Positions 41,472-62,005 of a stretch of 64,000 nucleotides of DNA are shown here, one piece after another. The number at the start of each line of letters is the position of its first letter. Position 1 is the stretch's first letter. Under the pieces are notes generated by a model. It saw only the letters and a program-made list of their open reading frames with translations, made no database searches and was not told the DNA's origin. The position numbers and the translations under genes were made by a program. This DNA comes from Exiguobacterium sp. s122 (lineage in GTDB: Bacteria; Bacillota; Bacilli; Exiguobacteriales; Exiguobacteriaceae), in contig NZ_JACSMD010000001.1 of NCBI RefSeq assembly GCF_018618475.1, forward strand, positions 310,001 to 374,000, given 5' to 3'.

Positions 41472-42356
41472 TTATTTTTTCACGACGGCATGGCCGCCGA
41501 ACTCGTTTCGAAGCGCCGCGACGACTTTCCCTGTGAACGTGTCGTCCTCGAGCGAGCGATAGCGCATCATGAGCGAGAGGGCAATGACCGGTGCGGCCGC
41601 TTGCAAATCAAGCGCCGTCTCGACCGTCCATTTTCCTTCGCCGGACGAATGCATGACCCCTTTAATCTCGTCGAGCTTCGCATCTTTTCGGAACGCGTTC
41701 TCCGTCAGCTCCATGAGCCAAGACCGGACGACCGATCCGTGGTTCCAGACGCGGGCGACTTGCTCGTAGTCGTAATCGAACGGGCTTTTCTCTAAGATAT
41801 CGAACCCTTCGGCGATCGCCTGCATCATGCCGTACTCGATGCCGTTATGAATCATCTTCAAGAAGTGACCGCTCCCGGCTGGCCCCGTATACAAGTAGCC
41901 GTTCTCGATCGACAAGTCTTTGAAGAGCGGCTCGATGGTTGGCCAGGCGTCGGCGTCACCGCCGACCATCGTACAAGCCCCGTGTCGCGCTCCTTCTGTG
42001 CCGCCGCTCGTCCCGCAGTCGAAGAACGAGATGCCTTTCTTGCCGAACTGCTCGGCCCGTGCGACCGACAGCTTATAATTCGAGTTACCGCCGTCGATGA
42101 CGATGTCTCCCGGCGACAGCCGTTCGTAAAGTTCCACTATGACGGCCTCGGTGATGTCCCCGGCTGGTACCATCGTCCAGATGACGCGTGGCGTCTCAAG
42201 CGCATCGACGACGTCTTCTAAGGTCGAGACGATCTCGAACGCATCGGTCGCATCGACAGTACCTGCGTCCGTCCCGACGACACGATGGTCGTGGTCGCTC
42301 AAGTTCAATGCCAAGTTGTATCCCATCTTGCCCAATCCAATTAAACCGATTTCCAT
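41472..42356 (-). CDS. 6-phosphogluconate dehydrogenase (short, YqeC/GndA type), copy 1
   Basis: The 294-residue decarboxylating dehydrogenase is of the short form, which is often NAD-linked. IGLIGLGKMGYNLA is the dinucleotide loop, DGGNSNYK and TSGGTEGARHG line the substrate site, and GHFLKMIHNGIEYGMMQ holds the catalytic Lys. It turns 6-phosphogluconate into ribulose-5-phosphate, CO2 and NAD(P)H. As first gene of the gluconate operon it completes the path gluconate, 6-phosphogluconate, pentose phosphate. A paralogue lies at 55.3-56.1 kb. Confidence 0.92.
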   Translation of the reverse strand: MEIGLIGLGKMGYNLALNLSDHDHRVVGTDAGTVDATDAFEIVSTLEDVVDALETPRVIWTMVPAGDITEAVIVELYERLSPGDIVIDGGNSNYKLSVARAEQFGKKGISFFDCGTSGGTEGARHGACTMVGGDADAWPTIEPLFKDLSIENGYLYTGPAGSGHFLKMIHNGIEYGMMQAIAEGFDILEKSPFDYDYEQVARVWNHGSVVRSWLMELTENAFRKDAKLDEIKGVMHSSGEGKWTVETALDLQAAAPVIALSLMMRYRSLEDDTFTGKVVAALRNEFGGHAVVKK

Positions 42357-55261: not shown

Positions 55262-56143
55262 TTATTTCTTCTCGACCGCATGCCCGCCGAACTCATTTCT
55301 AAGCGCGGCGACGACCTTGCCGGAGAACGTGTCCTCTTCGAGCGAGCGTTGGCGCATCATGAGAGAGAGGGCGATGACGGGAGCCGGCACACCGTACTCG
55401 AGCGCCGTCTCGACCGTCCATTTCCCTTCACCCGACGAGTGCATGACGCCTTTAATCTCGTCGAGCTTCGCGTCTTTATGGAACGCGCTCTCGGTCAGCT
55501 CCATGAGCCATGAACGAACGACCGACCCGTGGTTCCAGACGCGGGCGACTTGTTCGTGGTCGTAGTCGAACGGGCTCTTCTCGAGAATCTCGAACCCTTC
55601 GGCGATCGCCTGCATCATGCCGTACTCGATGCCGTTGTGGACCATCTTCAGGAAGTGCCCGCTGCCACTCGGGCCAGCGTACAAGTAGCCGCTGTCCGTC
55701 GACACGTCGGAGAAGATCGTCTCGATCTTGCCGAACGCTTCCATGTCACCGCCAATCATCGTGCACGCCCCGTGCCGTGCCCCTTCCATGCCACCGCTCG
55801 TCCCGACGTCGAAGAAGTAGATGAGTTTTTCTTTGAAATGCTCGGCACGTGCGATCGACTGCTTATAGTTCGAGTTCCCGCCATCGATCACGATGTCGCC
55901 TGGCGATAACAGCTGATGCAAATCCGCTAATACGTGATCCGTCACTTCGCCAGCCGGTACCATCACCCAGACGACGCGCGGTGTCTTTAGTCCTTCGACG
56001 ACTTCCTCGAGCGAATCCTTCGTCTCGAACTGGCTCGTCGACACGTTGCCTGGATCGTAGCCGAGGACGCGGTAGCCCGCATCCGTCAAGTTGAGCGCGA
56101 GGTTCAATCCCATCTTTCCTAAACCGATCATTCCGATTTCCAT
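55262..56143 (-). CDS. 6-phosphogluconate dehydrogenase (short type), copy 2
   Basis: The 293-residue paralogue of the enzyme at 41.5 kb keeps the same active-site motifs: GMIGLGKMGLNLA, DGGNSNYK, TSGGMEGARHG and GHFLKMVHNGIEYGMMQ. The C-terminal half is almost identical to copy 1 and the N-terminal half clearly less so. Outside the gluconate operon it likely serves the basal pentose phosphate path. Both starts share the context GGTGACGATATG. No gluconate-type operator is seen upstream. Confidence 0.92.
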   Translation of the reverse strand: MEIGMIGLGKMGLNLALNLTDAGYRVLGYDPGNVSTSQFETKDSLEEVVEGLKTPRVVWVMVPAGEVTDHVLADLHQLLSPGDIVIDGGNSNYKQSIARAEHFKEKLIYFFDVGTSGGMEGARHGACTMIGGDMEAFGKIETIFSDVSTDSGYLYAGPSGSGHFLKMVHNGIEYGMMQAIAEGFEILEKSPFDYDHEQVARVWNHGSVVRSWLMELTESAFHKDAKLDEIKGVMHSSGEGKWTVETALEYGVPAPVIALSLMMRQRSLEEDTFSGKVVAALRNEFGGHAVEKK

Positions 56144-57543: not shown

Positions 57544-57647
57544 AAACACACAAAGATATCCTTAGTATTTTTTGGTAAAGTACTATAACATAACACGAGG
57601 AAAGGGAACTCCTTTTGTAAAGAATATTGGAAAGAAGGTGGCTTTCG

Positions 57648-58571
57648 ATGGCGAGACATCGTAAAAAGCGGGGCGGACGTCGCATCTTTTTCATCACACT
57701 TGGCATCCTCGTGCTCTTTTTAGTCGTAGGCGGAGCGATGACGTGGTCGATGTATCGGGATGTGAATGATACCGTCTCGAAAGTGAATCAAAACCTCGAC
57801 GTACGAGAAGAGCGAAGAAACGTGGAAACAATCGAAGACGAAAAGTCCGTTTCGATTCTTCTGCTAGGCATCGACCGCGGTGAAGGCCAACGTGGTCGAA
57901 GTGACTCCATCATCGTCATGACGTTAAACCCGACGACAGACGAAGGGGCGATATTATCGATTCCACGCGATACGAAAACGGAAATCGTCGGATACGGTAC
58001 ACGAGATAAGGTCAACCATGCTTATGCGTTCGGCGGAACAGACATGGCGATGGATACGGTCGAAGCCTTGCTCGACATCCCGATTGATTACGTGGTCGAG
58101 GCAGACATGGAAGCCTTCACGGAAGTTGTCGACACGCTCGGCGGCGTGACCGTGACGAACACGTTTGCGTTCGAACAAGATAATCATACGTTCCCGGTCG
58201 GTGAGCTTGAATTGAACGGGGCGGAGGCACTCGCCTATGCACGTATGCGTTACGAAGACCCGAACGGGGACTTCGGTCGTCAAGAACGACAACGGGCCAT
58301 CGTCGCGGCCATCGTCGAAAAAGGACGGAGCAGCTTCTCGGTCGATACCGTAACACGTCTTCTCGAGGTAGCGGGTGACCATGCGAAAACGAACCTAGAA
58401 TTTAACGAACTTGTTTCCTTATCAACTGACTATATGAAAGCGTTCCGGAACGCGAGCACGTTACGAATTGAAGGGACCGGTGGAAAGGAAAGTAACGGCA
58501 TCTATTACTGGAATCCGGACCCGGCCTCTTTAGCGGGAGTCCAAGATGAATTAAAACGATTGATGGAATGA
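57648..58571 (+). CDS. LytR-CpsA-Psr (LCP) ligase
   Basis: The 307-residue protein has a short basic tail, one membrane helix (about 13-35) and an extracellular LCP domain (about 65-290): LLLGIDRGEGQRGRSDSI, LSIPRDTKTEIVGYG and ALAYARMRYEDPNGDFGRQE with the conserved Asp and Arg residues. LCP enzymes attach teichoic acids or other polymers to peptidoglycan. ATG 57648 follows AGAAGGTGG. A terminator follows. Confidence 0.92.
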   Translation: MARHRKKRGGRRIFFITLGILVLFLVVGGAMTWSMYRDVNDTVSKVNQNLDVREERRNVETIEDEKSVSILLLGIDRGEGQRGRSDSIIVMTLNPTTDEGAILSIPRDTKTEIVGYGTRDKVNHAYAFGGTDMAMDTVEALLDIPIDYVVEADMEAFTEVVDTLGGVTVTNTFAFEQDNHTFPVGELELNGAEALAYARMRYEDPNGDFGRQERQRAIVAAIVEKGRSSFSVDTVTRLLEVAGDHAKTNLEFNELVSLSTDYMKAFRNASTLRIEGTGGKESNGIYYWNPDPASLAGVQDELKRLME

Positions 58572-58596
58572 GTCGCCCTTTAGGCGGCTCTTTTTG
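58570..58596 (+). terminator. Intrinsic terminator of the LCP gene
   Basis: GAGTCGCC (58570-58577) pairs with GGCGGCTC (58583-58590) and is followed by a T-run. It overlaps the stop codon. Confidence 0.8.
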
Positions 58597-58652
58597 CGTT
58601 TAGAAGTGTATAAATGGTGGGACTGATAAGAAGAGAAGACAGGAGGGATTGG

Positions 58653-59843
58653 ATGATTTGGGAACATGTAAAACCGATTGTCGATGAGCTCGTCGATAAT
58701 CACTCCGTAGCGGAGTGGAAACAATTATTCATGAAATGGGATGCTCAGACGTGGCATGACGGTGAAGTACCGACAGAGCGGACAAACGTCCTCATGATCG
58801 ATGCGAACGCCGTCACGACAGACGGGACACCCGACCTTGATGCACTTCATGAGTTGTTAAAAGACCATGTGCAAGCATCAATCAGCGATTTGTATCTCGT
58901 CTCGCTATTCCCATATGCTAAGGAGACGAGCGACACACGTGTCAATCCACGAATTCGTTTGCTCGAGGACCTCGGCCGATTTCACCAAGAGTTTGGACTC
59001 ATGTATGATGTGGAGCCGGACGTCTATAACGAGACACAGTTCGATCTTCTAAAAGAGACGGATTTGTTTATCGAACGGCTCGCTCAAGGCGCAACGGCGC
59101 TTCGTGTCCATGTCCAGTCCTTCCGCGGGATGCCGGAAGAACGGATTCGACTTGTTCTGACCTTATGGCATCGCGTGCTTCATCATTATAAGGCGAACGG
59201 ACAATTGATCCTTGCCTATGAAGGGGATACAAAACAAGTACCCGCTTATTTCGATGTCGCCGATGCGATTTGTCACTTCGATTTCGCCTCGCACGTCCTT
59301 CTCGCATTCGCCCAAGGCGATGCGACACGGTTACGCGATTGGACCGGCTATGATGCACCGCCTGAAGGGAAGACATATTATAACTTTTTATCTAGCCCAG
59401 AGCGTGACCCGTTCGAGAAAAACTTAATTAATCCGTTACCGGAACAAATTCTTGCAGCCCACAGTATCCTGTTGTCGTTACGCGGTATCCCGGCGATTGA
59501 TTATCGAACGCTTCTTGGTGTGACGACACCTGTCGATCGAGATGCGCTCATCCAAGAGGTGAAAACGGACCCGCAACGGTTAAATGTCTTTTCTGGCATC
59601 CTGAGTCAATTAAACGTTAAACGGACGCACCCGGCGCTCTCGCCTTATGCGCGCGAACGAATCGTTTCAGTCGACAACCGGGTGTTTGCCGTCGAGCGAA
59701 CGGACGGGCAAGAGACACTCACGCTCTACACGAACGTCTCGAATGAATCCGTGACGCTCTCTGTTCAGGGTACGAATGTATTCACGGAAGAGCCGGTCGA
59801 GACGATTGAATTAGAACCATATGGCTTTATATGGGTTCACTAA
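58653..59843 (+). CDS. GH13 sucrose-phosphorylase-like protein lacking catalytic residues
   Basis: The 396-residue protein is similar in order to GH13_18 enzymes (sucrose or glucosylglycerate phosphorylase): ISDLYLVSLFPYA, VNPRIRLLEDLGRFHQEFGLMYDV, ERLAQGATALRVHVQSFRG and AAHSILLSLRGIPAIDYRTLLG. The NHVS segment is replaced by PDVYN (122-126), and the domain B region of roughly 100 residues is absent. The nucleophile position (RLDAI in real enzymes) reads RVHVQ (151-155), and the SHDG motif reads SPERD (248-252). A Glu near the acid/base place (E190) remains. It looks like a pseudoenzyme kept by selection, since it is intact over 396 codons. ATG 58653 has GGAGG upstream. Confidence 0.7.
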   Translation: MIWEHVKPIVDELVDNHSVAEWKQLFMKWDAQTWHDGEVPTERTNVLMIDANAVTTDGTPDLDALHELLKDHVQASISDLYLVSLFPYAKETSDTRVNPRIRLLEDLGRFHQEFGLMYDVEPDVYNETQFDLLKETDLFIERLAQGATALRVHVQSFRGMPEERIRLVLTLWHRVLHHYKANGQLILAYEGDTKQVPAYFDVADAICHFDFASHVLLAFAQGDATRLRDWTGYDAPPEGKTYYNFLSSPERDPFEKNLINPLPEQILAAHSILLSLRGIPAIDYRTLLGVTTPVDRDALIQEVKTDPQRLNVFSGILSQLNVKRTHPALSPYARERIVSVDNRVFAVERTDGQETLTLYTNVSNESVTLSVQGTNVFTEEPVETIELEPYGFIWVH

Positions 59844-59846
59844 CAG

Positions 59847-59884
59847 AAACAAGTCCCTGACCTTATGTCGGGGACTTGTTTTAT
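59847..59884. terminator. Bidirectional terminator
   Basis: AAACAAGTCCC (59847-59857) pairs with GGGACTTGTTT (59871-59881). Confidence 0.8.
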
Positions 59885-61053
59885 AGTTCGGTCAAACGAA
59901 CACGCGTCGAGCCGTTCGTCCCAATAAAAAGACGGAGTGAATAATTCTCACTCTCATAGACGACAGCATCTTCCGTTTCAAGCGTAGGTTCGCCAAGCGT
60001 CATAAAATTCTGTTTTGACACACTGGTGTTTGTCCAGTCAATGGCGTGGATTTGTTCGTTTTGAATTGTGAAAAATAAGCCATTATAAAATGCATATGTG
60101 TTTAACGAATCGCGTTCTTCTCCGTACGGGTTACCGATTGTGTCATATAATTCAGTCTCGGCCAATCCTAGAGTTTCACTCAAAGACAAGGCATAGGTTA
60201 AATCGAGATTTGATTTCACCCATGAAAGGAGGTCTTGGTTAGATAAGGTAGCTGCTTTCCATTCGGTTGTCATTGCCGTTTCAGGTGCCCACGCAGTCAT
60301 TTTGCCTAAATCGACTTTGATAAAATTATCTTTTTTGCCAAGAACGGTATAGCGATCACCGATATCCCCGACATATGTAACGCTTGAACTATTTGGTGCA
60401 CTGACTAAATCCGTAGTTTTTGAAGTCACCCACACCGTCTGCTCATTTGATTGATTCGTCTGGTCTGCTACTGGTTCAGGCTCTGGTGGCGCTTTAATAG
60501 GTTTGATCATTTTCGTTTCATTAGATTCAAACAAGGACATGAAAGATGGATAACTAAAATATGCTACTCCGCTCAAAAGCAGAAACGTGGCGACTAAAAA
60601 AAGTAATCCCTTTCGTTGTTTACGAGGTCGAGCCGGTTCAATAAGACGATGATATTGTGCACGTTCTGAAAGAGAAGGCAATTCACGTTCAGGCTTGTAT
60701 CGACGCTTAGATGTTCCTTGTTGAGTAACGGGTAAATGATTATTAAGCTCTGTTGTAGAAATCGGATGTTGCATTTCATGATTCGATAAAATGTCATCGA
60801 TTCGTTCTAGTAATGCTATGTAATAAGAAGAAAACGGACTGTCCGTTCTCATATCTAGTAACCATACTTCAAAAGTATGAACAGTTTGTTTCTTTTTAAA
60901 AATTGAAAAATTTACTTCTCCGGTTAATTCATTATAAGAATCATATAAAGTTTTTGAAGTGGATAAATTTTTTTTAATTAATTCTTGTAAAGCGATTTGT
61001 TTAGAAGTAGGCAACCCAGCAATCAGTTGGCGAATTTTGTCTTGTTCCTGCAA
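59881..61053 (-). CDS. Membrane protein with SH3b-like extracellular domain
   Basis: The 390-residue protein has a charged cytoplasmic part (1-145), one membrane helix (about 147-168, LLFLVATFLLLSGVAYFSY), a Pro/Glu/Gln linker and a bacterial SH3-like domain (about 200-265, VWVTSKTTDLVSAPNSSS and VGDIGDRYTVLGKKDNFIKV). A C-terminal mixed domain has DTIGNPYGEE and IQNEQIHAIDW. I do not know the family. SH3b domains often bind cell wall. Base composition is AT-rich compared with neighbours. The start ATG 61053 is preceded by GGAGG. It is divergent from a tyrosine-phosphatase gene. Confidence 0.7.
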   Translation of the reverse strand: MQEQDKIRQLIAGLPTSKQIALQELIKKNLSTSKTLYDSYNELTGEVNFSIFKKKQTVHTFEVWLLDMRTDSPFSSYYIALLERIDDILSNHEMQHPISTTELNNHLPVTQQGTSKRRYKPERELPSLSERAQYHRLIEPARPRKQRKGLLFLVATFLLLSGVAYFSYPSFMSLFESNETKMIKPIKAPPEPEPVADQTNQSNEQTVWVTSKTTDLVSAPNSSSVTYVGDIGDRYTVLGKKDNFIKVDLGKMTAWAPETAMTTEWKAATLSNQDLLSWVKSNLDLTYALSLSETLGLAETELYDTIGNPYGEERDSLNTYAFYNGLFFTIQNEQIHAIDWTNTSVSKQNFMTLGEPTLETEDAVVYESENYSLRLFIGTNGSTRVRLTEL

Positions 61054-61237
61054 AATTACTTCCTCCTTTTCTAAAGTCGTACCTTTTAAAGTGTATCAGA
61101 CTTTTAATTGTACATGCGCGAAATCGAATAAAACAAACGAGGAAAGTTAATTGCAGAAGCGAATAAGTAATGGATACATGACTATAGCACGAAAAGGTAG
61201 ATAACGGATTCATATTCATTTTAAAGGAGATGTTACG

Positions 61238-62005
61238 TTGATTGATATTCATTGTCATATTCTTCCTTCTGTCGATGACGGTCCTCATATGCTAGAAGAA
61301 TCGCTTCGAATGGGGAAGCTTGCGATGGAAGAAGGGGTAACCTCTATTGTCGCTACGCCCCATGCCTTTCACCCGCAATTCGATTCGAATAATGAATGGA
61401 TTAAACAAAAATATTTAGAAGTCTGTGCAGGTTTTCAAGAAGAAGGAATTCTCATCGATCTTTATTTAGGACAAGAAATACGTGTTTCTGGTGAACTCAC
61501 CACATTACTTCTAAATGCGAAAGCTATGACAATTGCAAATTCACGTTACGTTCTGATTGAATTTCAAAGCGATAGTGTACCTGCTTATGTGAATCAGTTA
61601 TTGTTCAACCTTCAATTAGAAGGATATGTGCCTATTATTGCACATCCGGAACGAAATAAAGAGTTTGCACGAGAGCCCGGTCGCTTATTCGAGTTAGTAA
61701 ACGCGGGTGCTCTTTCGCAAATTACAACAAGTAGCGTGACGGGAGACTTTGGTCGTCATGTTCAAGAGCTTGCGTTAACATTTTTAAGAAACGGATTGAG
61801 TCAACTTATTGCGTCCGATGCTCATAATACCGATTGTCGCTCATTTAACTGGACCCGGACAAAAGAGCAAATTGTTGACGAGTTAGGCGAGTCGATGTGG
61901 GAAATGTATAGAAAAAACGCCAAAGCGATTATTCAAGACGAACCACTTCAATTGCCTAAACCGGTACTTCCGGTAAAAAATTGGAGGGGGAAGTGGAAGA
62001 AGTAG
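61238..62005 (+). CDS. CpsB/YwqE-type PHP tyrosine phosphatase
   Basis: The 255-residue PHP phosphatase has DIHCHILPSVDDGP (residues 2-15), ATPH, a Glu in GQEIR, IAHPERN and ASDAHN: the full set of metal ligands. In relatives it removes phosphate from capsule-linked tyrosine kinases and controls polysaccharide export. No kinase or capsule gene lies nearby in this window. The start is TTG with AAAGGAG upstream. The gene is AT-rich. Confidence 0.88.
   Translation: MIDIHCHILPSVDDGPHMLEESLRMGKLAMEEGVTSIVATPHAFHPQFDSNNEWIKQKYLEVCAGFQEEGILIDLYLGQEIRVSGELTTLLLNAKAMTIANSRYVLIEFQSDSVPAYVNQLLFNLQLEGYVPIIAHPERNKEFAREPGRLFELVNAGALSQITTSSVTGDFGRHVQELALTFLRNGLSQLIASDAHNTDCRSFNWTRTKEQIVDELGESMWEMYRKNAKAIIQDEPLQLPKPVLPVKNWRGKWKK

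Follow-up and report, generated by a model that had tools for sequence, protein, structure and literature searches.

A predicted GH13_18 pseudoenzyme with a rebuilt catalytic face, conserved beside an LCP gene in Exiguobacterium

Introduction

Precedents for a GH13 protein without the normal catalytic triad (Asp on β4, Glu on β5, and Asp on β7) are known, and 4F2hc, GH13_48, and GH13_45 may serve as analogues of the gene described here. The heavy chain 4F2hc has neither the triad nor domain B (PMC8537225), and proteins with missing or changed catalytic residues have been reported in GH13_48 and GH13_45 (PMC11239784; PMC5347038). Among GH13_18 phosphorylases, TETN at strand 5 and a loop-A Glu are the marks of glucosylglycerate phosphorylase (GGaP), and loss of either catalytic side chain in the sucrose phosphorylase of B. 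adolescentis (BaSP) removes practically all activity (PMC7178133). The literature searched contains hardly any description of a bacterial alpha-amylase-family pseudoenzyme whose parent has been traced; the searches on bacterial GH13 pseudoenzymes and on Exiguobacterium LCP returned nothing direct.

The window analyzed here is a 64,000-nucleotide stretch of Exiguobacterium sp. s122 (contig NZ_JACSMD010000001.1, positions 310,001 to 374,000). A sequence-only reading of it had proposed that one gene, located behind an LCP cell-wall ligase gene, encodes a GH13 pseudoenzyme related to sucrose phosphorylase and retained for a non-catalytic role such as sugar sensing or glycan binding.

Gene organization and conservation

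The gene and its upstream features were located as follows.

57627..58571, + strand: LCP (TagU-like) glycopolymer transferase gene
58570..58600, + strand: intrinsic terminator of the LCP gene (stem 58570-58590, then a T run)
58598..58622, + strand: conserved intergenic block GTTT...TGGGA, after the terminator; possible promoter
58641..58647, + strand: ribosome-binding site AGGAGGG
58653..59843 including the stop codon, + strand: GH13_18-derived pseudoenzyme gene, 396 aa, ATG at 58653

The frame is intact over 396 codons and has a strong ribosome-binding site, as had been read from the sequence, and both this site and the start position are kept in nearly all orthologues. An alternative in-frame start lies further 5′ at 58614, and the conserved ribosome site favors the start at 58653. 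The hairpin and T run of the LCP terminator were also seen in the aligned orthologues. The conserved block could be a promoter. All 19 Exiguobacterium genomes encode a sigma factor of the SigB family, and a GTTTAA-N13-GGGAAT-type promoter, which gives a genus SigB consensus, is conserved 5′ of the rsbV-like gene of the sigB operon in all 19 (L130-L148, near position 571-575). The block resembles this promoter, but a SigB promoter is not claimed for the pseudoenzyme gene, as the spacing in the block is 15 rather than 13 and its −10 letters differ from GGGAAT.

One intact orthologue was found in each of the 19 Exiguobacterium genomes, with 53–92% identity, the upper value being that of the E. 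alkaliphilum orthologue; none is frameshifted. The dN/dS ratio was 0.05–0.10 between near pairs, similar to that of the LCP gene (0.060 for the pseudoenzyme and 0.058 for its LCP neighbor in the comparison with E. alkaliphilum), and 91 of 282 barrel positions are invariant in the family. These results demonstrate that the gene is under strong purifying selection and is not decaying, and the proposal that the pseudoenzyme is retained by selection was borne out.

No orthologue was detected in 19 genomes of the sister genus, in which the only matches were weak ones of domain C with other amylases. Likewise, when the shortened form was looked for among about 400 Bacilli genomes and about 400 from the phylum, nothing but full-length enzymes or weak domain-C matches appeared outside Exiguobacterium, and thus no wider family was found in these samples. 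A virus collection searched with the pseudoenzyme family contained no relative. Two observations on GH13_18-type genes were made on viral contigs. On the virus-like contig IMGVR_UViG_3300031601_001281, a full-length GH13_18 gene resembling sucrose phosphorylase (L110:2492-3898) lies next to a primase/helicase-like gene. The prophage-like contig IMGVR_UViG_2869154154_000001 has one half of a glucosylglycerate-phosphorylase-type gene at each end (L111, L119), the N-terminal half at one and the C-terminal half at the other, a layout that would fit insertion of the prophage within that gene.

Homology to GH13_18 and the parent clade

When the single protein was used as the query, neither Pfam nor NCBIfam gave a significant family, with only sub-threshold domain-C matches in Pfam, and a phmmer search of PDB sequences gave no solid match. 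The single sequence is too divergent for Pfam or NCBIfam to give it a name. When a profile of the 19 orthologues was aligned with 15 GH13_18 enzymes by hhalign, the two families were co-linear over 381 columns (probability 100%; E value, 5.8e-50), a similarity well outside what chance would give. The intact GH13_18 protein of genome G009 also matched the pseudoenzyme piecewise, with 43% identity over the last 149 aa. The in-order alignment with GH13_18 phosphorylases was therefore right in substance.

In the phylogenetic tree, all pseudoenzymes formed one clade (100/100), indicating a single origin; its stem is long, at 2.75 changes per site, and evolution after it was slow. This clade was nested in a sub-clade of four GGaP-type enzymes with support of 100/99. 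The exact sister was unsettled: the G009 enzyme (L040) was placed there with support of 74/81, and the alternative was not rejected (p-AU 0.38). The parent-clade enzymes carry TETN at strand 5 plus the loop-A Glu. E255 of the pseudoenzyme aligns with E376 of L040 in 19/19 orthologues, and N257 matches the loop-A Asn of the parent clade; both alignments adjoin a deletion. As judged from the tree and the motif, the parent is the GGaP clade of GH13_18 and not sucrose phosphorylase itself, so that the proposed GH13_18 origin stands and the nearest relatives differ from those proposed.

Parent-clade enzymes in genomes G009, G389, and G391 adjoin a GH38 mannosidase, a PTS of the fructose type (EIIABC), and a protein read from its sequence as glycerate kinase. 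In G009, this operon with its full-length GGaP-type homologue lies 6.5 kb downstream of the pseudoenzyme gene. An origin by tandem duplication with the G009 enzyme is not strongly supported by the tree, and the downstream operon may have arrived later. G009 is the only one of the 19 Exiguobacterium genomes that retains a full-length GGaP-type enzyme, and the pseudoenzyme therefore cannot generally partner an active paralogue. Genome G014 encodes a separate sucrose phosphorylase.

Loss of the catalytic machinery

The triad of GH13 enzymes is replaced in the same way in all 19 orthologues.

59103..59111, + strand: Arg151-Val152-His153; Arg of RxD kept, nucleophile Asp replaced by His (RVHVQ)
59214..59222, + strand: Ala188-x-Glu190; acid/base Glu replaced by Ala, with Glu or Asp at position 190 in 19/19
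59400..59426, + strand: E250-R-D-P-F-E-K-N-L258; stabilizer Asp replaced by Glu (SPERD), loop of about 40 residues deleted, E255 and N257 corresponding to the loop-A Glu and Asn

The GGaP strand-5 motif (T/S)ETN is absent, with A-x-E/D in its place (TETN to LAYE). In the joint alignment with the enzymes, about 62–70 residues of domain B, which lies between β3 and α3, are deleted in all orthologues together with the NH(V/L)S segment, and a further deletion of about 40 residues follows strand 7. The losses of the nucleophile and transition-state Asp residues, of NHVS, and of most of domain B had been recognized from the sequence; the loss of the acid/base Glu, the rewritten SDDGF loop, and the deleted R-x-I-N-R loop had been missed. 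The glucose-binding residues of BaSP were taken from PMC7178133, and all of them are gone in the pseudoenzyme except Arg190, which corresponds to Arg151. By GH13 sequence criteria, the protein is a pseudoenzyme.

With the glucose subsite dismantled, sugar binding by the ancestral mode is unlikely, and since only Arg151 is left of this subsite, any sugar binding would use a new pocket. The suggested role in sugar sensing or glycan binding is not supported by these findings.

Structure model and rebuilt catalytic face

The AlphaFold2 model (pLDDT 76.1, pTM 0.77) predicted a (β/α)8 barrel of eight strands followed by domain C. Six of the nine rows of the input alignment were GH13_18 sequences, and the model, from which the strand tips were derived, therefore favors the fold of the parent; confidence was low around the new loop that follows strand 7. 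An earlier run with three near-identical rows (pLDDT 43.5) was set aside. The best structural matches were GH13 enzymes with Z scores of about 27–32, and the matches included sucrose-6F-phosphate phosphorylase (6s9v; Z, 29.6), glucosylglycerol phosphorylase (9j25; Z, 28.8), and human CD98hc (7df1; Z, 27.9). Together with the hhalign result, these matches place the protein in GH13, with the barrel and β-sandwich domain C.

58800..58802, + strand: Asp50, predicted tip of barrel strand 1; Tyr in all enzymes
59271..59294, + strand: C207-H208-F209-D210..S213-H214, new invariant motif after strand 6; YQF.LPP in enzymes
59499..59510, + strand: D283-Y-R-T286, new invariant motif at the predicted tip of strand 8; Y-x-H-S in enzymes
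59652..59840, + strand: domain C, β sandwich, about residues 334-396; best-conserved part relative to enzymes

Twenty-nine positions are fixed in both families with different letters (type II), and 12 of these would lie at the C-terminal, catalytic-face strand tips of the model (Fisher p = 8e-6, with alignment columns treated as independent). Positions shared by both families are enriched at the opposite face of the barrel (p = 0.009). Residues of the catalytic face have thus been preferentially replaced by other invariant residues; this face was rebuilt and not left to drift. The loss of the catalytic machinery and the retention of new fixed residues at the old active site argue for a repurposed enzyme rather than a decaying gene. 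N-terminal residues W22, K28, W29, W34, H35, and D36 are invariant only in the pseudoenzyme family. No signal peptide or membrane segment was apparent when the sequence was inspected by eye.

Genomic neighborhood

The LCP gene lies directly upstream of the pseudoenzyme gene in 19/19 genomes, in agreement with the position noted for this window; the terminator at 58570-58590 stands between the two genes. Another gene of the neighborhood is found further downstream.

61238..62005, + strand: CpsB/CapC-type PHP phosphatase gene

A frequent order in the genus is gnd, LCP2, yihY, LCP, pseudoenzyme, a small membrane protein and/or galE, an SH3-like protein, Wzz, BY-kinase, CpsB, galU, and CapD, and this neighborhood is, by its predicted gene content, a surface-polysaccharide region. 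In one clade (L093, L122, L123), cpsB starts 6 bp after the pseudoenzyme gene. Immediately beyond the pseudoenzyme gene, similarity of the window to E. alkaliphilum drops to about 55%, compared with 92% before. This break just 3′ of the gene indicates that it is part of the stable LCP block and not of the variable exopolysaccharide block, and the LCP terminator and the sequence break after the gene weaken a functional link to its neighbors.

Further observations were made in the window. The region 59881-62005 (SH3-like protein and CpsB) is about 55% identical to E. alkaliphilum versus 92–96% for the preceding genes and looks like a replaced exopolysaccharide block; Wzz and BY-kinase are absent after the pseudoenzyme gene, and the GC content is down to 0.39. 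Positions 59881-61053 encode a 390-aa, apparently membrane-anchored and fast-evolving protein without a Pfam family, whose gene neighbors the polysaccharide genes across most of the genus. Two short 6-phosphogluconate-dehydrogenase-like genes are located at 41472-42356 and 55262-56143 (294 and 293 aa), one of which adjoins gluconate-kinase-like and permease-like genes.

Discussion

The pseudoenzyme is co-linear with GGaP, with which it shares the barrel, domain C, the loop-A Glu and Asn, and the nearest clade of the tree, but it is shorter (396 versus about 550 aa) and lacks the triad, (T/S)ETN, NH(V/L)S, domain B, and the phosphate and glucose loops. The sucrose phosphorylases BaSP and AmedSP have the same fold and GH13_18 subfamily but are remoter than GGaP, and all of their catalytic and nearly all of their substrate residues are missing from the pseudoenzyme.

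We consider it probable that the protein is located in the cytosol and derives from a GGaP-type GH13_18 enzyme, that it is catalytically dead, and that selection fixed it for a role other than phosphorolysis, with its ligand pocket rebuilt. In the ancestor of the genus, a glucosylglycerate-phosphorylase-type gene would have been duplicated or transferred; the copy would then have shed domain B and the substrate loops and gone through one phase of fast change, and selection for a new job would have fixed it afterwards. The rebuilt face (D50, S84, H153, E/D190, C207, H208, D210, E250, D252, D283, and R285) may form the ligand pocket, and the protein may act without phosphorolysis, binding a ligand or serving in regulation, near the genes for cell-surface polymers (LCP and exopolysaccharide).

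A rebuilt pocket could instead be a new active site for a different reaction, perhaps with a metal held by His and Asp or with E190 and E250 as a new acid/base, although we regard this as unlikely. Neither the nucleophile nor the acid/base position holds an Asp or Glu, as the sequence-only reading would expect, but the stabilizer position holds an invariant Glu and the conserved E/D190 lies two residues past the acid/base position, which leaves room for wholly different catalysis. The invariant polar residues D50, H153, H208, D210, E250, D252, D283, and R285, with E/D190, stand at or just after the strand tips, and no known metal-site motif was identified among them. BmaN1 (GH13_45) has activity although its triad is aberrant (PMC5347038). 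The BmaN1-type amylases resemble the pseudoenzyme as bacterial GH13 proteins with a regular replacement of catalytic residues, but they act on starch and retain the acid/base Glu, which the pseudoenzyme family does not. If true, a new active or metal-binding site would mean chemistry not known for the GH13 barrel, in a protein present throughout one bacterial genus.

Somewhat less likely still is a pure protein scaffold comparable to 4F2hc/CD98hc, in which a partner, for example an envelope protein or one of the CpsB type, would dock onto the mouth of the barrel and the Trp-rich N-terminal helix. The non-enzymatic heavy chains 4F2hc and rBAT have the GH13 barrel and domain C, and 4F2hc shares with the pseudoenzyme the absence of both triad and domain B (PMC8537225); the CD98hc match, the family-specific N-terminal segment, and the 6-bp distance to cpsB are consistent with such a role. 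However, 4F2hc and rBAT are animal, extracellular, membrane-anchored transporter subunits from another GH13 branch and of independent origin, whereas the pseudoenzyme shows no apparent leader or membrane segment expected of an SLC7 transporter subunit and is not a 4F2hc orthologue. The close linkage to cpsB is also confined to one clade.

It is very improbable that the protein is still a GH13-type phosphorylase or hydrolase with an unusual triad: Glu250 is a conservative change of the stabilizer and E255 and N257 survive in loop A, but the nucleophile is His, the acid/base is Ala, the glucose- and phosphate-binding loops are deleted, and the BaSP results cited above argue against activity. A decaying pseudogene left open by chance, which the large deletions and the long stem branch might suggest, has a negligible probability and is refuted by the 19 intact orthologues, their low dN/dS, and the invariant barrel positions.

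For the catalytically dead derivative favored here, the parent clade, the loss of the triad, and the fixation of replacement residues can be read from sequences, and the purpose of a dead glycosidase barrel is therefore directly testable. For annotation, the label "sucrose phosphorylase" would be wrong for this gene, and giving it no name hides a protein conserved throughout the genus. Exiguobacterium is an easily grown genus in which to ask what a dead barrel is kept for.
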